DNA from: Salinivirgaceae bacterium
GTDB taxonomy: Bacteria > Bacteroidota > Bacteroidia > Bacteroidales > SZUA-534
Reading direction: 5' to 3'
NCBI GenBank assembly: GCA_017557785.1
Contig: JAFYYA010000037.1
Span: forward strand, 1 to 58,627
DNA length: 58,627 bases
Every line of letters begins with the position of its first letter. Positions within the stretch are counted from its first letter, which is position 1. Below, piece by piece: positions 13,326-25,561 of this stretch. Position numbers and translations under genes: made by a program. The notes below the pieces were generated by a model, which was not told the origin of the DNA, ran no database searches, and saw only the letters and a list, made by a program, of their open reading frames with translations.

Positions 13326-16127
13326 ATGAATCAAAATCCCGAGCAGATAGCGCGTGATAAGATTGACGCCTTGCTTGAACAGGCAGGGTGGAAAATCCAG
13401 TCGAAAAACAAGATAGATTTTTCGGCGGGGATAGGCGTTGCCGTGCGTGAGTATCAGACTGATGTGGGGCCTGCCGACTATGTTTTGTTTGTCAATCGGA
13501 AGCCAGTGGGCATAATTGAGGCGAAGCGTGAGGAGGAAGGCGTGAACCTGACCGTTGTTGCAGAGCAGTCGGTGCGCTATGCCAACGCCAAACTGAAATA
13601 TCTGAACAACGAGCCGTTGAATTACATTTATGAAACAACGGGAACCCTGACTCATTTCACTGACTATAGCGACCCCAAACCGCGTAGCCGCGCTGTCTTT
13701 GCGTTCCATAAACCCGAAACAATTGCCGAATGGATTCGCAACGGGCGGAGTTTGAGAAACCGCTTGCAGGATTTTCCCGAGTTGGACACCACGGGTTTGC
13801 GTCCAGCGCAGATAAAGGCTGTTGTGAATCTTGAGGAATCTTTCAAAAACAACCGTCCGCGCGCGCTGATTCAGATGGCTACAGGCGCAGGCAAAACCTT
13901 CACCGCCATTACATTCATTTACCGTCTGTTGAAATTCGCGAAAGCGAAACGCATTCTGTTCCTTGTCGATACCCGCAATTTGGGCGAGCAGGCGGAACAG
14001 GAGTTTATGAATTTCCGCCCGAACGACGACAACCGCAAATTCACCGAACTGTACAATGTGCAACGGCTCTCGTCGAGTTATATTGCCAACGACAGCCAGG
14101 TGTGCATATCGACCATACAGCGGTTGTATTCAATACTGAAAGGCGAGGAACTTGACGAGAACGCCGAGAACGACAACCCGAACGAATCGACGTGGTTGCA
14201 GCAAAAAACCAAAGAACAGCAGGCAGTTCCAGTGGAATATACAGAGAAAGTGCCTATCGAGCAGTTTGATTTTGTGGTGATTGACGAATGTCACCGCAGC
14301 ATTTACAATCTTTGGAAACAGGTGCTCGACTATTTCGACGCGTTCCTTATCGGCTTGACCGCTACGCCCGATAAGCGTACCTTTGGTTTCTTCAACGAGA
14401 ATGTGGTGAGCGAATACACTTACGAGCAGTCGGTGGTTGACGGCGTGAACGTGCCGTACGATGTCTATTCCATTGAAACGGAAATATCGAAAAACGGCGG
14501 ACTCATAAAGGCGGGTTGGCATATCGACTATCGCGACAAAGCCACACGCAAAACCCGTTGGCAGCAGGTTGACGAGGACATTGAATATAAGAAGAACGAT
14601 TTGGACAAGTCGGTGGTGAATCCGAGCCAGATACGCACCGTCATTCGCCAGTTCCGCAAGGCTCTGATGGAAGAGATTTTCCCGAACCGATACGATGAAA
14701 ACGGACAGTACGAGGTGCCTAAAACGCTCATTTTTGCCAAGACCGACAGCCACGCCGACGACATTATAAAGATTGTCCGCGAGGAGTTTGACGAGGGCAA
14801 CGACTTCTGCAAAAAGGTGACCTACAAAATCGACGAGGACCCGAAATCGGTGCTGAACCGTTTCCGAAACCAATACTACCCGCGTATTGCCGTAACCGTT
14901 GATATGATTGCCACGGGTACCGATGTGAAGCCGCTCGAGGTGCTTCTGTTTATGCGCGATGTGCGCAGCGCCAACTACTTTGAGCAGATGAAGGGGCGCG
15001 GAACCCGCACCATAAGCGGCGATTCGCTGCAGTTGGTGAGCCGCACGGCGCAGTCGAAGACTCACTTTGTGATTGTTGACGCAGTGGGCGTTACCCAAAC
15101 GCAGAAAACCGACAGCCGTCCGCTTGAGCGCAAGCCGACAGTGCCTTTGAAAGACCTGTTGGGCGCTGTTACAATGGGCGTTGCCGAAGAAGATTTGTTC
15201 ACTTCGCTTGCCAACCGCCTGATTCGACTTAACAAGGAAGTTACCGAAAAGGAGAAGGAACGGATAGAATTCCTGTCGAAAGGCAAGACATTGGGGCAGA
15301 TGAGCGCTGAACTGTTGGCGGCCTTCGACCCCGACAAAATCGACGATGAGGCGCAAAAGGAGTTGGGCAAAATTCCGCCAACCGAAATCACACCAGCCAT
15401 TGAGGAGAAAATACGCCAGGCCGCGCGAAGCCGTTTGGCCGAGATTGCCAGCAGCACCTTCAATGGCGAACTGAACGAGTATATTGTCACCGTCCGCAAT
15501 CTGCACGACCAGAAGATTGACACCGTGAATATGGATTCGGTGGTGGCGAGCGGTTTCAACAGTTTCACCAAAGAGAAAGCGCGCGAAACGGTCAAATCGT
15601 TTGCCGAATATCTTGAGCAGCACAAAGACGAGATTATGGCGTTGAGCATATTCTACAACCAGCCGTACAACCGCCGCAACCTGACGCTGAAAATGGCGCA
15701 GGAACTTCTCGAGAAACTGAAACAGGACAAACCCCTGTTGGCGCCCGCCTACGTATGGGACGCCTATTGCGCCATTGAGAATGTTAAGGCGGCGCAGCCC
15801 AAGACCGAACTCACGGCTCTTGTATCGCTTGTGCGCCACGCCTGCGGAATCGATAAGAATTTGGCGGCCTTCGACAGCGTTATCAACGCCAATTTCCAGC
15901 GGTGGATTCTGCGGCAGAACGCGGGAAACCACACACGCTTCACACCCGAGCAGATGAATTGGCTGCGAATGATAAAAGACCACATTGTAAGCAGTTATCA
16001 CCTTGATGTTGACGATTTGGACTACACGCCATTCGATGCCCAAGGCGGCCGCGGCAAGATGTACCAGTTGTTCGGCGAGGAAATGATGACGATTATTGAT
16101 GAGTTGAATGAAGTATTAGTAGCGTAG
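13326..16127 (+). CDS. hsdR: Type I restriction enzyme, R (motor/nuclease) subunit
   Basis: The ATP-dependent translocase and endonuclease subunit of a type I restriction-modification complex, 933 residues. The N-terminal nuclease shows a PD-(D/E)xK pattern, with Asp51 in GPADYVLF and Glu66/Lys68 in GIIEAKRE. The helicase core has Walker A MATGAGKTF (about 184-192), VIDECHRS, LTATPDKRT and a motif VI-like QMKGRGTRTI. The helical C-terminal part resembles the EcoEI R C-terminal domain. It opens the island; rhuM follows after 11 bases, while hsdS and hsdM lie 2.4 and 4.2 kb further on. Nothing appears broken, so the subunit is probably active with the distal S and M subunits. Confidence 0.95.
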   Translation: MNQNPEQIARDKIDALLEQAGWKIQSKNKIDFSAGIGVAVREYQTDVGPADYVLFVNRKPVGIIEAKREEEGVNLTVVAEQSVRYANAKLKYLNNEPLNYIYETTGTLTHFTDYSDPKPRSRAVFAFHKPETIAEWIRNGRSLRNRLQDFPELDTTGLRPAQIKAVVNLEESFKNNRPRALIQMATGAGKTFTAITFIYRLLKFAKAKRILFLVDTRNLGEQAEQEFMNFRPNDDNRKFTELYNVQRLSSSYIANDSQVCISTIQRLYSILKGEELDENAENDNPNESTWLQQKTKEQQAVPVEYTEKVPIEQFDFVVIDECHRSIYNLWKQVLDYFDAFLIGLTATPDKRTFGFFNENVVSEYTYEQSVVDGVNVPYDVYSIETEISKNGGLIKAGWHIDYRDKATRKTRWQQVDEDIEYKKNDLDKSVVNPSQIRTVIRQFRKALMEEIFPNRYDENGQYEVPKTLIFAKTDSHADDIIKIVREEFDEGNDFCKKVTYKIDEDPKSVLNRFRNQYYPRIAVTVDMIATGTDVKPLEVLLFMRDVRSANYFEQMKGRGTRTISGDSLQLVSRTAQSKTHFVIVDAVGVTQTQKTDSRPLERKPTVPLKDLLGAVTMGVAEEDLFTSLANRLIRLNKEVTEKEKERIEFLSKGKTLGQMSAELLAAFDPDKIDDEAQKELGKIPPTEITPAIEEKIRQAARSRLAEIASSTFNGELNEYIVTVRNLHDQKIDTVNMDSVVASGFNSFTKEKARETVKSFAEYLEQHKDEIMALSIFYNQPYNRRNLTLKMAQELLEKLKQDKPLLAPAYVWDAYCAIENVKAAQPKTELTALVSLVRHACGIDKNLAAFDSVINANFQRWILRQNAGNHTRFTPEQMNWLRMIKDHIVSSYHLDVDDLDYTPFDAQGGRGKMYQLFGEEMMTIIDELNEVLVA

Positions 16128-16138
16128 AAGGAAGCATT

Positions 16139-17137
16139 ATGGAAAACAATCAACATAGCATAGTCCTTTATCAGACCGACAGCACAAATGTGTGCGTAAG
16201 TGTGTGTTATGCCAATGAAACATTTTGGCTGACGCAGAAAGCAATGGCGGAATTATTCGGTGTGCAAAAAGCTGCCATCTCAAAGCATTTGAAAAACATA
16301 TTCGAAGACGGAGAACTCGAAGAAAATTCAGTTGTTTCCAAAATGGAAACAACTGCCACAGACGGGAAAAAATACAATACGAGTTTTTATAATCTCGACG
16401 CAATCATAGCCGTTGGGTATCGTGTGAACTCAAGGCAGGCAACGGCGTTTCGCATTTGGGCGACAAAAACATTGAAAGAGTATATCACCAAAGGTTTTGT
16501 GCTCAACGATGATATGCTGAAAAACGGCAAGCCTTTTGGCAAGGATTATTTTGACGAGTTACTTGAGCGGATACGCGAGATTCGCGCCAGTGAGCGACGC
16601 GCCTACCAAAAAATAGCCGATGTGTTTGAACAATGCAGTTATGATTATGATAAAAACAGCGAGACAACAAAAGCATTCTATGCATACGTGCAAAATAAGT
16701 TACATTTTGCTGTAACAGGAAAAACGGCTGCTGAACTGATTTACGAACGAGCTGATTCTACGCAACCCACTATGGGACTGACTACGTGGAGCGCAGCCCC
16801 CGATGGAAAAATACTGAAACGTGATGTGACGGTGGCCAAGAACTATCTGAACGAAAAAGAGTTATCGCGACTGAACCGTCTTGTAACTATGTTTATCGAC
16901 TATGCCGAGCTGATGGCCGAAGATGAGGTGCTGATGAGTATGAAGGATTGGCTTGCCCAAACCAATGTATTCCTGACCAACAACCGCCGAAACGTTCTTG
17001 AAGGAAAGGGAACCGTATCGCACGAGCAAGCCTTGGACAAAGCAACCAAGGAATATGAGGTTTTCCGCATCCGCCAAGACAAAGAGTACATTTCCGAGTT
17101 CGACAAGGAAATGGAAAAGTATTTGAAAGGGGATTAA
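16139..17137 (+). CDS. RhuM family protein
   Basis: A 332-residue protein of the RhuM (virulence-associated) family, frequently embedded in type I restriction loci and pathogenicity islands. Recognisable blocks are FWLTQKAMAELFGV (about 29-42), AISKHLKNIFEDGEL, SFYNLDAIIAVGYRVNS (about 81-97), FRIWATKTLKEYITKGF and FVLNDDMLKNG. The N-terminal part looks like a helix-turn-helix DNA-binding module. The biochemical role is not established for the family. It starts 11 bases after hsdR and is probably co-transcribed with it. Repeats begin about 50 bases after its stop. Confidence 0.88.
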   Translation: MENNQHSIVLYQTDSTNVCVSVCYANETFWLTQKAMAELFGVQKAAISKHLKNIFEDGELEENSVVSKMETTATDGKKYNTSFYNLDAIIAVGYRVNSRQATAFRIWATKTLKEYITKGFVLNDDMLKNGKPFGKDYFDELLERIREIRASERRAYQKIADVFEQCSYDYDKNSETTKAFYAYVQNKLHFAVTGKTAAELIYERADSTQPTMGLTTWSAAPDGKILKRDVTVAKNYLNEKELSRLNRLVTMFIDYAELMAEDEVLMSMKDWLAQTNVFLTNNRRNVLEGKGTVSHEQALDKATKEYEVFRIRQDKEYISEFDKEMEKYLKGD

Positions 17138-17188
17138 TGGAATCGATAATTGAAGAATTGAATGAGGTGTTGGTGGCGTAACTGATAC

Positions 17189-17399
17189 GGTGGCTTCGAC
17201 AGGCTCAGCCACCGAGGAGAGCGGGCTGCCACCAGTGAGGTCGTTGAGCGTGTCGAAACGACCGATGCAAATCCAGCCACCGAGTAGCGATGCCTGAGCT
17301 TGTCGAAGGCAGAGTGGAGAAACGTGGCTTCGGCAAGCTCAGCCACCCATAGATGCAAATCCAGCCACCGAGTAGCGATGTCTGAGCTAGTCGAAGGCA
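17189..17399. repeat. Cluster of five hairpin repeats with a common 11-base loop
   Basis: Hairpins at 17189-17213 (stem GGTGGCT/AGCCACC), 17239-17263 (GGTCGTT/AACGACC), 17291-17311 (TGCCT/AGGCA), 17324-17346 (GTGGCT/AGCCAC) and 17379-17399 (TGTCT/AGGCA, one wobble pair). The loop is TCGACAAGCTC, a close variant, or its complement, so units occur in both orientations. Stems differ between units but pair within each unit. A spacer containing ATGCAAATCCAGCCACCGAG occurs twice. They fill the 282 bases between rhuM and the GIY-YIG gene. Confidence 0.85.
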
Positions 17400-17419
17400 G
17401 AGCGTTAAAAAGAATGATT

Positions 17420-18037
17420 ATGAAAGGTTATATGTACATATTGCTCTGCAACGATGACAGTTATTACACAGGAAGCACCAACGATTTGGAGCGCCGTATG
17501 GCCGAGCATTTTTCAGGGCAAGGAGCCAACCACACAAAGAAACACCCGCCCATTAAATTATTGTATTACGAAGAGTTCCAAAGAATTGATGAGGCTTTTT
17601 ATAGAGAAAAGCAAGTACAAGGATGGAGCCGCAAAAAGAAAGAAGCATTGATAAACGGACAATACGAGAAATTGCCAGAATTATCGAAATGCTACTCGCA
17701 GAAGGAAGCGGATGCGGGGGCTTCTGCAGGCTCAGTAACGGTGGCTTCGACAGGCTCAGCCACCGAGGAAACAGGCTCAGCCACCGAGGAAACAGGCTCA
17801 GCCACCGAGGAAACAGGCTCAGCCACCGAGGAAACAGGCTCAGCCACCGAGGAAACAGGCTCAGCCACCGAGGAAACGGCCACGACCACCACGACAGCGA
17901 TGCCTGAACGAAACGAAGCGATGCCTGAACGAAACGAAGCGATGCCTGAGCTTGTCGAAGGCAGAGCGGAAAGTGGTCATTTCGACAAGCTCAATGACCA
18001 TAGACTAAAGGCAGAACGCAAAAGCCAAAAGAAATAA
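17420..18037 (+). CDS. GIY-YIG nuclease-family protein with repeat-encoded C-terminal tail
   Basis: A 205-residue protein in two parts. Residues 1-95 are a compact GIY-YIG domain of the UPF0213/YhbQ type: GYMYILL (3-9), SYYTGST (14-20), the Arg-containing ERRMAEH (24-30), and FYREKQVQGWSRKKKEALI with the candidate metal-binding Glu63. Residues 96-205 come from translated DNA repeats: six TGSATEE units, two AMPERNE units, then MPELVEGRAE and a final hairpin repeat. Such tails are not part of the family. ATG at 17420 or 17414 (adding MI) is the likely start; further upstream the frame only runs through repeats. It lies between rhuM and the zinc-ribbon gene. Single-strand or branched DNA cutting is plausible from the family but unproven. 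Confidence 0.85.
   Translation: MKGYMYILLCNDDSYYTGSTNDLERRMAEHFSGQGANHTKKHPPIKLLYYEEFQRIDEAFYREKQVQGWSRKKKEALINGQYEKLPELSKCYSQKEADAGASAGSVTVASTGSATEETGSATEETGSATEETGSATEETGSATEETGSATEETATTTTTAMPERNEAMPERNEAMPELVEGRAESGHFDKLNDHRLKAERKSQKK
17740..18000. repeat. In-gene repeat block: hairpins and two tandem arrays
   Basis: Begins with a full hairpin at 17740-17764 (GGTGGCT/AGCCACC). Six exact tandem copies of a 21-base unit starting CAGGCTCAGCCACC occupy 17751-17876. Two copies of another 21-base unit starting GCGATGCCTGAACG cover 17897-17938. Hairpins follow at 17943-17963 (TGCCT/AGGCA) and 17974-18000 (TGGTCATT/AATGACCA, loop TCGACAAGCTC). Unit length is a multiple of three, so copy-number changes keep the GIY-YIG reading frame. 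Confidence 0.9.
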
Positions 18038-18084
18038 TGTAATTTTGCATAATAAGACAATTGAATATAAGAGGGTTTTATGAT

Positions 18085-18465
18085 ATGGGACTTTACGAGG
18101 GTATAAAAGATGTTGCAAAAATCGTTCAGCAGGCCGATAATGTAGATTTATATCGTAAACTGATAGATTTAAGTGCGCAAGCGTTAGAAATGCAAAACAC
18201 AATAAACAATTTAACACAAGAAAATCTACAATTAAAGCAAGTTAAATCTCTTGAAGAGGATATAGAGAGAAGCGATAAATTATTTGTTACACGAAAAAGT
18301 GATACAAACCCTGACAAACTTATGTATTGCTCAAAATGTTGGGATGTGGAAAGGAAACTCGTGCAAATGAGAAAAAATAATGGGGAGATTCATTGCCCTA
18401 ATTGTAATGCGTATGATATATATGATGAATCGAAACATAAAACATACGGTATCTCAATAAGATAA
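18085..18465 (+). CDS. Small coiled-coil protein with C-terminal zinc ribbon
   Basis: A 126-residue cytoplasmic protein. Residues 1-65 form a helical, probably coiled-coil region (MGLYEGIKDVAKIVQQADN, then Gln/Asn/Leu-rich heptads). The C-terminal part has two Cys pairs, CSKC and CPNC, about 27 residues apart, typical of a zinc ribbon. The ATG at 18085 is preferred over an upstream TTG because MGLYEGIKD is the usual opening of such proteins. It sits 20 bases before hsdS. Similar small proteins accompany mobile and defence loci. Nucleic-acid or subunit binding is a guess from the zinc ribbon. Confidence 0.7.
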   Translation: MGLYEGIKDVAKIVQQADNVDLYRKLIDLSAQALEMQNTINNLTQENLQLKQVKSLEEDIERSDKLFVTRKSDTNPDKLMYCSKCWDVERKLVQMRKNNGEIHCPNCNAYDIYDESKHKTYGISIR

Positions 18466-18485
18466 ACATTGAATGACAAATTTTA

Positions 18486-19724
18486 ATGAGTAATTACCCA
18501 ACATACAAATTAGGCCAAATCTGTGAAACCACCAGTGGAGGAACGCCTAACCGAAAGAATGACGCATACTATGGCGGTTATATTCCGTGGGTTAAATCAG
18601 GCGAATTGGGCAAGGGAACTATTTATGACACCGAAGAAAAAATCACAGAAGAAGCCGTAAAAGAATCCAGCGCCAAAATATTCCCTAAAGGTACGCTTTT
18701 GATAGCCTTATATGGCGCAACTATTGGAAAATTAGGTTTTTTGGGCGTTCCTGCCGCAACCAATCAAGCCGTATGTGGCATTTTTGAGAACGAAAAGATT
18801 GATTTGCAGTTTTTGAGTTATTATTTGTTTCATAAAAGAAACGATTTGATAGCCCAAGGAACAGGCGGAGCGCAGCCAAATATTAGTCAAACAATACTTA
18901 AGAACCTTTCCATTCCCCTTCCCCCCCTTGCCACCCAGCACCAAATAGTTTCCCGCATAGAAACCCTTTTTGCCGAACTCGACAAGGCCGAGGAGCGCCT
19001 GCGCACCGCACAACAGCAACTCAAAACATACAAGCAGGCCGTGCTCAACCATTGGCTGAATAATGACGAGGGGAAGTGGGAAACGGTGAAATTGGGAGAG
19101 GTTTTGCAGAAAATCGAAGCAGGAAAGAGTTTTAGATGCAATGAAAAAGTTCCCGCATTACACGAAAAAGGAATTGTAAAGATTAGTGCCGTTACGTGGG
19201 GTGAATTTATGGAAGACGAATGTAAAACCATAATAAATGAGGAATTATACAATCCCAAATACAGAATCCATAAGGGAGATTTATTGATGAGTAGAGCAAA
19301 TACGATTCAATTGGTAGGAAATTGTGTACTTGTCAAAGAAGAACCTAGAAGAGACATTTTATTGAGTGATAAAGTTTTGAGATTGGTACTTTGCGATGAA
19401 ATTGATTCTAACTATATTCTATATAGTCTCAAAACGTCAAATTGTAGAAATCAAATACAAATTATGTCTACAGGTAATCAAGACTCTATGAGGAATATAG
19501 GTCAAGACAGAATAAAAAAAATTGAAATACCCCTTCCCCCGCTTTCCGAGCAGCAGCGCATAGTTGAGGAGATAGAATCGCGCCTGTCGCAGGCTTCGAA
19601 AAGTTCTGCCTGCATTGAGGAAGCCCTGCAACAAACCGAGGCACTGCGGCAAAGCATACTCAAAAAGGCGTTTAGTGGGGAGTTGGTCGTTTCGACAAGC
19701 TCAACGACCACCAAAGGTGGCTGA
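18486..19724 (+). CDS. hsdS: Type I restriction-modification specificity subunit
   Basis: Recognises the two halves of the target site and holds the M and R subunits together; 412 residues. It has two target-recognition domains (about 5-145 and 200-345), each followed by a helical conserved region opened by the same motif: LSIPLPPLATQHQIVSRIE (about 140-158) and IEIPLPPLSEQQRIVEEIE (about 348-366). The last 12 residues, VVSTSSTTTKGG, are encoded by a repeat hairpin (19685-19709) rather than by family sequence; the usual end is SGEL. The domains are AT-richer than hsdR and hsdM, as is common for S subunits that exchange domains. hsdM follows after 557 bases, an unusually long gap. Confidence 0.94.
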   Translation: MSNYPTYKLGQICETTSGGTPNRKNDAYYGGYIPWVKSGELGKGTIYDTEEKITEEAVKESSAKIFPKGTLLIALYGATIGKLGFLGVPAATNQAVCGIFENEKIDLQFLSYYLFHKRNDLIAQGTGGAQPNISQTILKNLSIPLPPLATQHQIVSRIETLFAELDKAEERLRTAQQQLKTYKQAVLNHWLNNDEGKWETVKLGEVLQKIEAGKSFRCNEKVPALHEKGIVKISAVTWGEFMEDECKTIINEELYNPKYRIHKGDLLMSRANTIQLVGNCVLVKEEPRRDILLSDKVLRLVLCDEIDSNYILYSLKTSNCRNQIQIMSTGNQDSMRNIGQDRIKKIEIPLPPLSEQQRIVEEIESRLSQASKSSACIEEALQQTEALRQSILKKAFSGELVVSTSSTTTKGG

Positions 19725-19871
19725 GCACGTCGAAGCCACCACTGTCGTTTCGACAAGCTCAGCCACCAATGACGCAAGCCCTACCACTAACGAAGCGGTG
19801 CCTGAGCCTGTCGAAGGCACCGCGTCAGAGTTTGTCGAAGGCACCGCGTCAGAGTTTGTCGAAGGCACCGC
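19685..19871. repeat. Hairpin repeat cluster at and beyond the hsdS 3' end
   Basis: Hairpins at 19685-19709 (GGTCGTT/AACGACC), 19716-19740 (GGTGGCT/AGCCACC, inverted loop) and 19795-19823 (GCGGTGCCT/AGGCACCGC, inverted loop). The unit at 19744-19767 has a GTCGTT arm facing an AGCCACC arm and does not pair fully, as if formed by joining two different units. Two 24-base direct copies containing GAGTTTGTCGAAGGCACC follow at 19824-19871. The hsdS stop codon lies inside the cluster. Confidence 0.85.
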
Positions 19872-20281
19872 GACAAAGCCTGTCAAAGCCCCCGATGCTA
19901 TAATGACGAAATTTATCGGTTTTTTAAAGTTTCGTCATTATCGTAAAAAGAAGCGTACCTTTAATTAAGGAAATCCATATTTAACTGTCGGACCGATAAA
20001 CTTAAATATGGATAGTTATATTTAACTTTGCACTACCTAAAGTTAAATATGGCATTCAAATATGAGTATGGCTTTATTTGACCGCAAAGAATATTTACTA
20101 ATGTAAAACAATATAACATTCTGAAAAACAGCAATATTTTTATTTGACGGTTATTTGACTGAAAGAAATTTTCGTAAGATAAAAGTTTATGTAATGGTTA
20201 TGTAACTGAGAGATTTGGGAATTATTATAAATAATTGAAAATCAAATGCGTTTTATATAGCGTTTATGTAATTGAGAGTTT
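19872..20281. promoter_or_regulatory. Structured AT-rich region upstream of hsdM
   Basis: No gene is supported. An inverted repeat ATAATGACGAAA/TTTCGTCATTAT spans 19900-19941. A 10-base motif CCATATTTAA or its complement TTAAATATGG occurs at 19975-19984, 20002-20011 and 20043-20052, and a shifted copy ATATTTAACT lies at 20018-20027. TAACTTTG at 20023-20030 fits a -7 box and overlaps one copy. TTATTTGAC occurs three times between 20073 and 20160. Two similar 20-base segments containing ATGTAAnTGAGAG end at about 20216 and 20281; the second supplies GAGAG just before the hsdM ATG. The layout suggests a regulated hsdM promoter. Confidence 0.5.
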
Positions 20282-21787
20282 ATGACAGAATCAGCAATCA
20301 TTTCGAAAATATGGAATATGGCCAACGTCCTTCGCGACGATGGCGTTAGTTACGGCGATTATCTTGAGCAAATCACCTATTTGCTTTTCCTTAAGATGGC
20401 CGACGAGATGAACCGCCCGCCATACAACAAGGGGCTGAAGTTTCCGCATTTGAAAGATGCCGAGGGCAGGGAAATCCCCGACGGCGAAATGTGCGATTGG
20501 GAGACGCTCACAAGCAAGCGCGGTGCCGAGTTGGAGGCCTACTATGTGCAGATGCTTCGCAGCCTTGCCACCGAGAAGGGAATGTTGGGACAAATCTACA
20601 CCAAAAGCCAGAACAAGATTCAAGACCCAGCCAAGTTGCTTCGCGTAATCGATATGATTAACCGCGAGAATTGGTCGCTGATGGGTTCCGATGTCAAGGG
20701 CAAGATTTACGAGGGATTGCTCGAGAAGAATGCCGAAGACACCAAAAGCGGCGCGGGCCAGTATTTTACGCCACGTGCGCTGATTCGTGCAATGGTTGAG
20801 TGCGTGCGTCCGAAACCCGAGAAAACCATAATCGACCCAGCCTGTGGAACGGGCGGTTTCTTCCTTGCTTCATACGACCATATTGCCGCCCAGCCTTTGA
20901 ACAAAGACCAGAAACTGTTCCTAAAGAAAAAGACCTTCTTCGGCAACGAGATTGTGGCCAACACCCGCCGTCTGTGCCTGATGAACCTTTATCTGCACAA
21001 CATTGGCGAACTCGACAGCGAGGACTTCATTTCGCCCAACGATGCCCTTGTGTCCGACACAGGCAACCGCTACGACTATGTGCTCACCAATCCGCCTTTC
21101 GGCAAAAAGAGCAGCATTACCATAACCAACGAGGACGGCGAGGTTGAGAAAGAGGATTTGAGTTACAACCGTCAGGATTTTTGGGAGACCACTTCCAACA
21201 AACAGTTGAATTTCCTTCAGCATATCAAGACCTTGCTGAAAGTCACAGGTCAGGCGGCTGTCGTTCTGCCCGACAATGTTCTTTTCGAAGGTGGTGCGGG
21301 CGAGGAAATCCGCAAGCAGTTGATGAAAACCACCGAACTGCACACCATTCTTCGCCTGCCGACAGGTATTTTCTACGCCAACGGCGTGAAGGCCAACGTG
21401 CTGTTCTTCGACAACCGTCCTGCGAGCAAGGATGTGCAGACCCGCGACATTTGGTTCTACGACTACCGCACCAACATTCACCACACGCTCAAGAAGTCGC
21501 CGCTCACATTTGAGGATTTGGCCGATTTTATCAAGTGCTACAATCCAGAGAATCGCAATCTGCGCACCGAAACGTGGAGCGAGGCGAATCCCGAAGGCCG
21601 TTGGCGCAAGTTCACCTACGACGAGATTATCGCCCGCGACAAAACCAATCTCGACATTTTTTGGATAAAGGACAAGAGCCTTACCGACCTTGACAATCTT
21701 CCCGAACCCGATGAGATTGCCGCCGAGATAATCGAGAATTTGGAGGAGGGAATTGCTTGTTTTAAGAAGGTGTTGGCAAATGCATAG
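20282..21787 (+). CDS. hsdM: Type I restriction-modification DNA methyltransferase subunit
   Basis: Transfers a methyl group from S-adenosylmethionine to adenine N6 in the site chosen by the S subunit; 501 residues. The N-terminal helical domain (about 1-150) precedes the catalytic domain, with motif I DPACGTGGFF (185-194) and motif IV NPPFGK (270-275). GAGQYFTPRALIRAM (157-171) is the usual bridge between the two. All expected parts are present. The start ATG at 20282 follows GAGAG by six bases. It is the last gene of the island and is separated from hsdS by a long regulatory stretch, so it may have its own promoter. That would allow protective methylation before restriction. Confidence 0.96.
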   Translation: MTESAIISKIWNMANVLRDDGVSYGDYLEQITYLLFLKMADEMNRPPYNKGLKFPHLKDAEGREIPDGEMCDWETLTSKRGAELEAYYVQMLRSLATEKGMLGQIYTKSQNKIQDPAKLLRVIDMINRENWSLMGSDVKGKIYEGLLEKNAEDTKSGAGQYFTPRALIRAMVECVRPKPEKTIIDPACGTGGFFLASYDHIAAQPLNKDQKLFLKKKTFFGNEIVANTRRLCLMNLYLHNIGELDSEDFISPNDALVSDTGNRYDYVLTNPPFGKKSSITITNEDGEVEKEDLSYNRQDFWETTSNKQLNFLQHIKTLLKVTGQAAVVLPDNVLFEGGAGEEIRKQLMKTTELHTILRLPTGIFYANGVKANVLFFDNRPASKDVQTRDIWFYDYRTNIHHTLKKSPLTFEDLADFIKCYNPENRNLRTETWSEANPEGRWRKFTYDEIIARDKTNLDIFWIKDKSLTDLDNLPEPDEIAAEIIENLEEGIACFKKVLANA

Positions 21788-24211: not shown

Positions 24212-25561
24212 ATGAAGAAACATTTGCTTTTATTCGGTCTGATGGCCGTTTTGTTCGCATCATGTGAGAAAAAGGAAGAAAGTTACGACTGCAAGGCGGT
24301 CAACACGTGCGTTTATGAGATAATGGACACATATTATCTGTGGAACAGAGAGATGCCGCAGCAGAGAAAGTTGAATTTCGATGATGAGCCCGATGTTTTC
24401 TTCGACAAGCTGCTCTACTCAGCTGACCATTGGTCGTTCATTGATGATGACAGCGAATCCACCAATGCCCAGCTTGAAGGTTCTCCTTATTCTATGGGTT
24501 ACTCGCCGCAGTTTCATTTGTATGATGGGGGCGAACACGTGCTGATTCTGGTAGAGTTTGTTTATCCGGGCTCGCCGGCCGATTTGGCAGGGTTGAAACG
24601 TGGCGACATCATTCTCGACATCAATGGAACGCCGCTGACCCCCAAGAACTATTATGACCTTTATCAAGAAAAAAAGGCAACATATACATGTGCCACTTAT
24701 GATGCATCAACCAACACGCTCAACGAAACAGGAAAACTCACCATGGAGGCCACAGTTGTTAAAGCCGATCCGTCGATTTACGATACCATTTTTTATGTTG
24801 GCAACAAACCTGTGGGTTATTATGTGTTCACGGCTTTTGCTTCTGACAAATCGTATTTAGCCACAATGGACAATGTGTTTGACAAGTTTAAAGATGCAGG
24901 AGTAAAAGACCTTATTCTTGATTTGCGCTACAACGGTGGCGGAGACATTGGTGTTGCTTCGCATCTGGCTTCAGCCATTGCTCCGGCAAATGTCGTGAAA
25001 AACCATAATGTGCTTGTTACTTATGTGTACAACGATTTGTTGACAAGCTATTTTGAAGAAGATGAAGACGAAATACTCGTTCGTTTCCCTGATAACGACT
25101 ATAATGCCGACATCGAGAATTTATATGTGCTCTGTACTGAAGGAACGGCTTCGGCCAGTGAGTTGGTGGCTATCGGACTAGAACCGTATATGAACGTAAA
25201 ACTCATTGGAACAAACACATACGGCAAATACACAGGAATGTTCATTTTTGACAAAGATGTTCGTGGGTGCAAAGATCTTGAAAACTGGATTCTTCTGCCC
25301 GTTTGTATGAAATACGCTAATTCTGAAGGATTTAGTGATTTTGTTGATGGTTTGGAGCCTGATTATAAGGTTGAGGACGATTTGCTGAGCGGCTATCAGT
25401 TTGGCGATGCCAACGATCCGATGCTTGCTACGGCACTCGATGTTATTGGCGGACTGCCACTTACTGCCAAGGCTGCAAGAGTCAAACCGTTCGAATCATT
25501 GGGCCGCGACCGATCGATTGTGGGCAACAACTTGATTATCAGACCATCAAGTTTGAGATAA
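24212..25561 (+). CDS. Lipoprotein S41-family (C-terminal processing) peptidase
   Basis: A 449-residue cell-envelope serine protease. The N-terminus MKKHLLLFGLMAVLFASC is a lipoprotein signal with the lipid-attachment Cys at 18, followed by a charged EKKEE. A PDZ-like segment, EFVYPGSPADLAGLKRGDIILDING, lies at about 113-137. The S41 core has DLILDLRYNGGGDIGVASHLA (about 237-257) and the Ser/Lys pair in GTASASELVAIGL and GTNTYGKYTG. The start at 24212 is chosen because the 8 preceding in-frame residues would spoil the signal peptide. Tex follows 86 bases later, apparently unrelated. Substrates are unknown. Confidence 0.92.
   Translation: MKKHLLLFGLMAVLFASCEKKEESYDCKAVNTCVYEIMDTYYLWNREMPQQRKLNFDDEPDVFFDKLLYSADHWSFIDDDSESTNAQLEGSPYSMGYSPQFHLYDGGEHVLILVEFVYPGSPADLAGLKRGDIILDINGTPLTPKNYYDLYQEKKATYTCATYDASTNTLNETGKLTMEATVVKADPSIYDTIFYVGNKPVGYYVFTAFASDKSYLATMDNVFDKFKDAGVKDLILDLRYNGGGDIGVASHLASAIAPANVVKNHNVLVTYVYNDLLTSYFEEDEDEILVRFPDNDYNADIENLYVLCTEGTASASELVAIGLEPYMNVKLIGTNTYGKYTGMFIFDKDVRGCKDLENWILLPVCMKYANSEGFSDFVDGLEPDYKVEDDLLSGYQFGDANDPMLATALDVIGGLPLTAKAARVKPFESLGRDRSIVGNNLIIRPSSLR

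Follow-up and report, generated by a model that had tools for sequence, protein, structure and literature searches.

Hairpin repeats marked by a one-strand foot accompany a subfamily of small GIY-YIG nuclease genes in Bacteroidota and other bacteria

The window studied here, by which we mean the whole stretch of 58,627 nucleotides of contig JAFYYA010000037.1 from a Salinivirgaceae bacterium, contains a small GIY-YIG nuclease gene set among short hairpins that share a loop and differ in their stems. It was found that such hairpins accompany relatives of this gene in many genomes, and that a short foot, conserved on one strand 3' of the loop, agrees with the clade of the nuclease beside it. The best explanation, to which we assign a probability of about 0.68, is that the hairpins are non-autonomous elements resembling repetitive extragenic palindromic (REP) sequences and that the GIY-YIG protein is their dedicated enzyme, as RAYT is for the GTAG REPs. 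Four things were observed computationally: the proximity of hairpins and gene, the clade-specific foot, the in-frame hairpin length differences in hsd genes, and the presence or absence of the nuclease gene in the cluster. An earlier note on this DNA had proposed that the protein recognises or mobilises the hairpins; proximity, co-occurrence and the co-variation of foot and clade strongly support the link between the two, whereas recognition and mobilisation keep the standing of an interpretation.

Proximity was measured at 80 close loci, i.e., the best 80 of a larger number of relatives, which were picked by protein similarity alone. Hairpins of the form TC[GA]N5CTC with at least five pairs reached 3.61/kb at less than 250 bp from the gene, 0.84/kb at 250-500 bp and 0.16/kb at 500-1000 bp, and fell to 0.015-0.085/kb beyond 1 kb, with zero in all bins for the reversed-loop control. 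Under a wider hairpin definition, 199 hairpins were counted in 23.9 kb at 0-150 bp (8.3/kb) and about 0.1/kb at 2-6 kb from the gene (shuffled sequences, 0-2 per bin), and both sides of the gene carried hairpins at 47 of the 69 testable loci. Such close framing on both sides would also suit hairpins that are regulatory near the gene (attenuators, terminators or self-control of the nuclease) and have spread elsewhere incidentally, a reading made very improbable by the hairpins lying in frame inside hsdS, hsdM, hsdR and the nuclease tail and by copy numbers that exceed 100 in some genomes. The gene had two or more hairpins within 1 kb at 73 of the 80 close loci, at 17 of 20 loci scoring 83-107 bits (mostly of a sister clade), at 15 of the 29 nearest loci in 395 sampled Bacteroidota genomes, and at 1 of 20 distant GIY-YIG loci (54-62 bits); the reversed-loop control gave 0 loci in each set. 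The hairpin association belongs to a GIY-YIG subfamily and not to GIY-YIG at large, and the clustering near this subfamily that the earlier note had suggested looking for in relatives exceeds chance (73/80 close vs 1/20 distant loci). A second flank test, which demanded perfect 7-bp stems and shared 8-mers and was too strict for the Bacteroidota classes, was positive at 20/80 close, 0/20 mid and 1/20 far loci, at 1/9 and 1/20 loci of Pseudomonadota and in 5/10 of a mixed plasmid set (shuffled, 0 throughout). Outside Bacteroidota, hairpin-bearing loci were found in Kuenenia, Desulfobacterales, Leptospiraceae and a deltaproteobacterium, and the same hairpin architecture stands beside gene relatives in Planctomycetota (L117), Spirochaetota (L166) and Thermodesulfobacteriota (L154). 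On plasmids and phages only relatives of less than 60% identity were found.

Counting 3' from the loop, the seventh base was C in 94% of 348 occurrences, and this C was kept in 170 of the 188 cases in which it is unpaired. Since it is conserved even when unpaired, one strand is marked, and the hairpins around the GIY-YIG genes are tagged palindromes, i.e., hairpins of 20-40 bp with a conserved unpaired tag on one strand; in the window hairpins the foot itself is partly paired. Two foot rules were applied, of which the A.CC rule is the looser and accepts C at position 7. The 80 close loci had 324 A.CC feet, 2 TGAC feet and 20 others, and the sister set had 66 TGAC, 11 A.CC and 10 others. On a tree of 171 proteins with 128 footed loci (100 A.CC and 28 TGAC), which was built on few columns and includes near-copies, the division between A.CC and TGAC among the footed loci requires one change. 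When unlabelled rows were counted as well, TGAC required 5 changes vs 26 after shuffling and A.CC 10 vs 55; two distant loci (L222 and L234) were labelled A.CC, apparently by chance. Furthermore, four genomes (G012, G226, G140 and G057) have footed hairpins at loci of both clades, which were separated there by identity to the window protein (65-72% vs 47-54%), and in all four each gene matches the foot of its own clade. The residues that separate the clades (98 and 27 sequences) include Ser19, Gly35, Asn37, Lys40, Phe60, Arg62 and Gln67. The strand-specific foot matters more than the loop and is the constant part of the hairpin. In some Proteobacteria a third foot (TGAAC, CGAAC, TGAGC or TGAAG) was seen beside GIY-YIG genes (L175, L269, L273, L276 and L277).

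The earlier note had taken the loop for the fixed part, a view that has to be given up: three loop classes occur among the relatives (I, TCGACARGCTC; II, TCGAGNRCCTC; III, TCG[AG]CTNCGCTC), and the conserved one-strand foot had escaped it. The loop was also rejected as the main specificity element, each of the three classes being found with both feet. Class I and II labels do cluster on the protein tree (15 changes vs 28 shuffled). Loop positions 5 and 8 were G-C in 136 cases, C-G in 104 and otherwise in 4 (n=244), as an inner pairing of the loop would give, though two old lineages could produce such counts too. DNA folding gave an inner loop stem in one class II hairpin tried, pairing position 5 with 9 and not with 8, and none in both class I hairpins tried, and the class III example folded no better than its shuffles (76/200 as good). 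The stems behave as the same note had described, being rebuilt by paired changes: pairs 2-6 were paired in 70-91% of 348 distinct occurrences vs 37-64% with partners shuffled.

In the window itself, 14 matches to TCGACAAGCTC with at most one mismatch were counted (shuffles: mean 0.94, maximum 4), 13 of them within 17,196-19,862 and a stray one at 24,402. Ten TCG..CTC hairpins with at least four uninterrupted pairs lie within 17,196-19,814, and elsewhere in the 58.6 kb there is a single one, with a 4-bp stem, at 617. The figure of at least ten hairpins at 17.2-19.9 kb, first given from the letters, was therefore reproduced together with the stems named then (ten with stems of at least 4 bp, 13 loop copies vs 0.94 expected for the whole window); that the units occur only there is right for 13 of the 14 loop copies and wrong for the stray loop and the hairpin at 617. 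The observation is real and far above chance, and it holds well beyond the window. Its hairpins have 5-9 bp stems and 11-nt loops and are placed 5' of the GIY-YIG gene, inside its tail and 3' of it; in four of the 13 loop copies (17,384; 19,750; 19,828; 19,852) the stem has just 0-2 pairs.

Upstream of the gene stand hairpin 1 (17188..17214, + strand; loop TCGACAGGCTC, 8-bp stem, foot ACC), hairpin 2 (17239..17263, - strand; loop TCGACACGCTC, 7-bp stem), hairpin 3 (17291..17311, - strand; loop TCGACAAGCTC, 5-bp stem, foot ATC) and, inverted relative to the latter and 34 bp away, hairpin 4 (17324..17346, + strand; loop TCGGCAAGCTC, 6-bp stem). Hairpin 5 (17739..17765, + strand) lies within the tail of the GIY-YIG open reading frame (ORF), where its 3' half is also repeated in tandem with a 21-bp period (17750..17875, + strand). 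Hairpin 6 (17943..17963, - strand; 5-bp stem) is inverted relative to hairpin 7 (17974..18000, + strand; 8-bp stem, foot ACC) again at the 34-bp offset seen between hairpins 3 and 4. Hairpin 8 (19684..19710, + strand) lies at the 3' end of the hsdS ORF, and beyond it are hairpin 9 (19716..19740, - strand; loop TCGACGTGCTC, 7-bp stem), hairpin 10 (19795..19823, - strand; 9-bp stem, foot ACC) and the poor-stem loop copies at 19750, 19828 and 19852 with 24-bp tandem steps (19749..19894), a site at whose equivalent the relative L095 has a GIY-YIG gene. Tandem duplication is part of the cluster (21-bp steps at 17,750-17,875 and 24-bp steps at 19,804-19,894), as would be expected if it had arisen by local duplication of one chance palindrome unrelated to the nuclease; the same architecture beside gene relatives across phyla and the zero counts of the reversed-loop controls leave us with next to no belief in such an origin. 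Between hsdS and hsdM, at 19900-20057, the window holds other inverted repeats, ATAATGACGAAATTT / AAGTTTCGTCATTAT, and TTAAATATGG words, which are unlike the hairpin family.

The genome of the window is a 3.0-Mb draft of 153 contigs (94% complete, 7% contamination). In it, exact TTCGACARGCTCA occurs 14 times, with 8 copies on the window contig (C10), 5 on C67 and 1 on C121, and PF01541 was found in three places, namely the window gene, a gene on C67 that is 87% identical to it, and a 635-aa frame on C44 that is presumably UvrC. Thus the two contigs that hold 13 of the 14 exact cores, C10 and C67, each have one of the two small GIY-YIG genes within their hairpin cluster. On C67, too, the cluster is surrounded by type I genes (N6 methylase, Fic, GIY-YIG, specificity subunit, HsdR N-terminus). 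At L034 (1146-2264) a Fic-family gene stands between hsdM and the second GIY-YIG gene, and in the window a RhuM-family gene stands between hsdR and GIY-YIG. The class I cores of this genome are A.C-footed in 12 cases and GAC-footed in 0. Many dispersed copies per genome, as expected of REPs, are lacking here, with 13/14 exact cores at two loci; they do occur elsewhere, e.g., in G363 and G371.

Across the 395 Bacteroidota genomes, counts of the hairpin pattern reached 107 forward and 103 reverse, with at most 4 per strand for reversed-pattern controls. A genome was called repeat-rich when it had at least 10 copies of some loop class (79/395). A relative of the gene (E<=1e-3) was detected in 70 of these 79 and in 172 of the 316 others (odds ratio 6.5, p=5e-9, relatedness ignored). 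The earlier note had held that equal abundance of the repeats in genomes lacking the nuclease would speak against it, and to this there is a partial answer: the gene proved commoner in the repeat-rich genomes, and nine of them gave no match. Among 33 class-I-rich genomes the foot was nearly uniform per genome (20 GAC-majority, 10 A.C-majority, 3 with 0-1 footed copies), and a close-clade gene, defined in this survey by at least 108 bits, was present in 7/10 A.C-majority vs 2/20 GAC-majority genomes (p=0.0017). The two GAC-majority genomes with such a gene are G012 and G140, both carrying both clades.

Gains and losses of hairpins were observed, and by themselves are no proof of who moved what. 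HsdM on C67 has a 40-residue stretch, containing three loop copies of which two have good stems, where the gene of L098, otherwise 97-99% identical, has 8 residues. HsdR has 1,001 aa in L097 and 933 aa in the window; a stretch of hairpins in frame accounts for the additional 68 aa. In L095, the GIY-YIG gene lies between two direct copies of about 97 bp (96% and 88% identical) of a hairpin stretch that is single in the window (19,749-19,846) and has no gene in it. That L095 has the gene in a cluster from which it is missing in the window, together with the existence of repeat-rich genomes lacking the gene, would fit a homing-type element whose insertion target is hairpins of other origin, which it does not move. 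We consider this unlikely, as the match of foot to protein clade needs a single change on the tree and holds within single genomes too, and the gene is commoner in copy-rich genomes.

L096 occupies the same chromosomal site as the window island and has hairpins and a GIY-YIG gene without hsd genes, which take up 8.5 kb in the window; its flanks match those of the window over 2,208 bp at 86% on the side of the H+-pyrophosphatase gene and over 214 bp at 87% on the other side. In G363 (L306, 13361-14279), the nuclease and 13 GAC-footed hairpins lie at the breakpoint between blocks that are apart in congeners. A 20-kb region of G363 was searched for an empty site in four congeners, and flank ends were examined in three: in G379 and G214 the gene and the GAC-footed hairpin were absent from both flanks, which are rearranged, and in G261 the left flank alone was re-found, with one GAC-footed hairpin near. 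Inverted hairpin pairs have nearly constant spacing (60-68 bp in G072, 36-41 bp in G076 and G111, 60-63 bp in G371), most of them ending GTCA...TGAC; G371 has 201 GAC-footed copies, the spacing of 60-63 bp being taken from the pairs listed. The same facts bear on a reading in which the hairpins are not mobile elements but cut sites tuning DNA uptake and recombination, which would raise or lower the exchange of the genes they frame, in this case restriction-modification genes. Such tuning is what Ssn and its target repeat are said to do in Neisseria. The hairpins at the joints of a variable island with L096 lacking the hsd genes, the position of both small GIY-YIG genes of the genome among type I restriction-modification genes, and the G363 cassette at a rearrangement breakpoint all favour it, whereas the high dispersed copy number and the uniform inverted pairs (G371) suggest copying of units and not only cutting. 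We give cut sites an even chance, and they are compatible with hairpins being REP-like elements served by the GIY-YIG protein.

For that service a mechanism can be proposed. A DNA strand may become single on the lagging strand, during DNA uptake or in a cruciform; the GIY-YIG protein would recognise the folded hairpin together with its 3' foot and nick the single strand next to the foot; repair or strand transfer could then copy, insert or delete hairpins near by, the spreading units being single hairpins, inverted pairs or the hairpin-framed nuclease gene. As one strand alone is marked, the stem sequence is free and the protein would act by GIY-YIG chemistry, we infer that it recognises the folded single strand and nicks it close to the foot; mobilisation of the hairpins by the protein is likely.

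Several observations weigh against this reading. Nine of the 79 repeat-rich genomes had no match at E<=1e-3, and eight of them stayed negative in a profile search, the ninth, G017, gaining a weak match. G002, a single contig, has 195 class III copies and no detectable GIY-YIG relative; its hairpins may be relics or be served by another enzyme. G137 and G046 are rich in A.CC hairpins yet have only distant GIY-YIG genes, and those of the distant genes that are framed carry other, TGAC-footed hairpins (L326, L330 and L332). G016 is rich in A.C feet, and such hairpins are absent from the surroundings of L325, its best GIY-YIG locus. The third GIY-YIG locus of G226 (L239) has hairpins with neither foot. 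Such a hairpin is lacking at 12 of the 29 loci that come nearest in the 395 genomes, and eight of the 12 form one close clade in family f19. Only 3 of 20 Pseudomonadota loci at 56-72 bits have at least two TCG..CTC hairpins, and 1 has CGTC REPs. Moreover, since the inserts found replace some bases, no clean insertion site or target duplication could be defined, and the site of the G363 cassette is also a rearrangement breakpoint.

Two of these groups have repeats of other kinds. The f19 clade (L074, L076, L077, L079, L087-L089 and L094) consists of close GIY-YIG genes without TCG..CTC hairpins, and other repeated words, e.g., CGTATCGAAG or CGGTCGCCGA, occur beside the gene at L074, L076, L077 and L079. 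At the weak relatives L326, L330 and L332 (41-70 bits), the TGAC-footed flanking hairpins have other loops, e.g., TCGATTCCTC.

The nuclease gene (17414..18037, + strand) encodes 207 aa from the ATG at 17414 and matches PF01541 at 2.7e-19. The GIY-YIG domain lies within about the first 94 aa, and the C-terminal tail is translated hairpin repeats; the Pfam scan found no other domain in the protein. Y6, Y16, G18, R26, H30 and E63 are invariant across 24 aligned sequences, so that the protein has the Tyr, Arg and Glu of the GIY-YIG domain, which we take to be catalytic. NCBIfam has no family for it and gave one weak match only on 20 members of the sister clade. The AlphaFold model (pLDDT, predicted local distance difference test, 95) has UPF0213 and SLX1 as its nearest folds. 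The surrounding type I restriction-modification island has the gene order hsdR (13326..16127, + strand), RhuM-family gene (16139..17137, + strand), GIY-YIG, small ORF, hsdS (18486..19724, + strand, the 3' end extending into hairpin 8) and hsdM (20282..21787, + strand). The nearest public relatives of the window are Salinivirgaceae metagenome-assembled genomes from ruminants.

Among known systems, REP/RAYT (REPtrons, REPINs) as generally described is alike in that the enzyme gene is framed by matching hairpins, pairing is tag-specific and inverted pairs have fixed spacing. The comparison drawn in the earlier note was apt in that inverted pairs at nearly fixed spacing occur. The enzymes are unlike, RAYT being an HUH tyrosine transposase flanked by GTAG REPs and the framed gene here a PF01541 GIY-YIG nuclease. 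As the earlier note had also stated, no RAYT lies here: the scan covered six neighbouring proteins of the window, and no search for RAYT genes was made at genome level. UPF0213 proteins (PDB 1zg2, 1ywl) and SLX1, which acts on branched DNA with SLX4 according to PDB entry titles, resemble the window protein in fold and profile, and unlike the window subfamily, distant GIY-YIG relatives (54-62 bits) are without a pair of such hairpins at 19/20 loci.

Ssn proteins (site-specific single-strand nucleases), reportedly described by Chenal and co-workers in 2025, are said to be GIY-YIG nucleases that cut single-stranded DNA at a Neisseria repeat with hundreds of copies and modulate transformation, and other Ssn homologs were reportedly matched to their own sequences. 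Should this hold, biochemistry would already exist for one member, and the kind would be less new. The Neisseria repeat dRS3 has been equated with CGTC-1 (PMC3733652).

The closest comparison is with the CGTC REPs, which "apparently lack a dedicated transposase" (Di Nocera, De Gregorio and Rocco 2013, PMC3733652). They share with the hairpins studied here the short hairpin form, an unpaired terminal tetranucleotide (in their case CGTC, often TGTC), and the occurrence in inverted pairs and as intragenic copies; their stems have 8-9 bp and their loops 4-5 nt, and the term GIY-YIG does not appear in that paper. The TGAC foot of the sister clade is GTCA on the other strand and, with the preceding base, gives the CGTC/TGTC tag, which most sister-clade hairpins carry and the window genome lacks. 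The window hairpins are unlike CGTC REPs as described there in having the tag CGGT (foot ACCG) and loops of 11 nt instead of 4-5, and in being few and clustered, not dispersed. Stems and loops of the CGTC REP type were found at L291, L266, L298, L299 and L301, with five canonical copies each at L291 and L266; among 29 Pseudomonadota loci (L269-L297), 6 had at least two TCG..CTC hairpins and 1 had at least two CGTC REPs. Azospirillum lipoferum and Novosphingobium aromaticivorans are named as CGTC species in the same source. In A. lipoferum AZO_p3 (L302, 22891-25745), a GIY-YIG gene with four CGTC REPs lies in the suf operon, between sufB and sufC. On that plasmid 4/5 tagged hairpins of 49 kb are within 500 bp of the gene, and an inverted CGTC pair frames a GIY-YIG gene on N. 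aromaticivorans pNL2 (2/7 tagged hairpins) and on a Sphingobium plasmid (2/4), the reversed-sequence control giving 2, 1 and 2 in 49 kb, respectively. The genes framed on these three alphaproteobacterial plasmids are distant relatives, and the plasmids were chosen from eight records because the tag is present, the remaining five showing none. Rickettsia palindromic elements (RPE), of which RPE-4 and RPE-6 have been filed as CGTC repeats, are also short palindromes inserted in genes, and the consulted part of that paper pairs no nuclease with them (PMC3733652).

Among the papers listed in literature searches, whose reach did not extend to preprints and most subscription papers, none joins GIY-YIG with REP repeats. 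We tentatively suggest, with somewhat less than even confidence, that this superfamily of GIY-YIG nucleases supplies, throughout bacteria, the dedicated enzymes that had been missing for CGTC-type REPs. Each clade would have its own foot (CGTC/TGTC, CGGT, or a GTTC-like tag in some Proteobacteria), the switch of foot would have gone with protein changes (Ser19, Gly35, Asn37, Lys40, Phe60, Arg62 and Gln67), and a second REP-enzyme system would have evolved independently beside RAYT. For the question left in 2013 of what moves the CGTC REPs, beside which no transposase was described (PMC3733652), our data name a candidate with a testable specificity code, made of foot and protein residues. They also extend the system to Bacteroidota, where some sampled genomes have about 200 such hairpins and where hairpins have entered genes without breaking the reading frame, and small nucleases with readable hairpin preferences could serve as single-strand cutters. 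Because many bacteria show this pairing with a matching end tag, we suggest this nuclease family as the partner of a class of repeats long thought partnerless.

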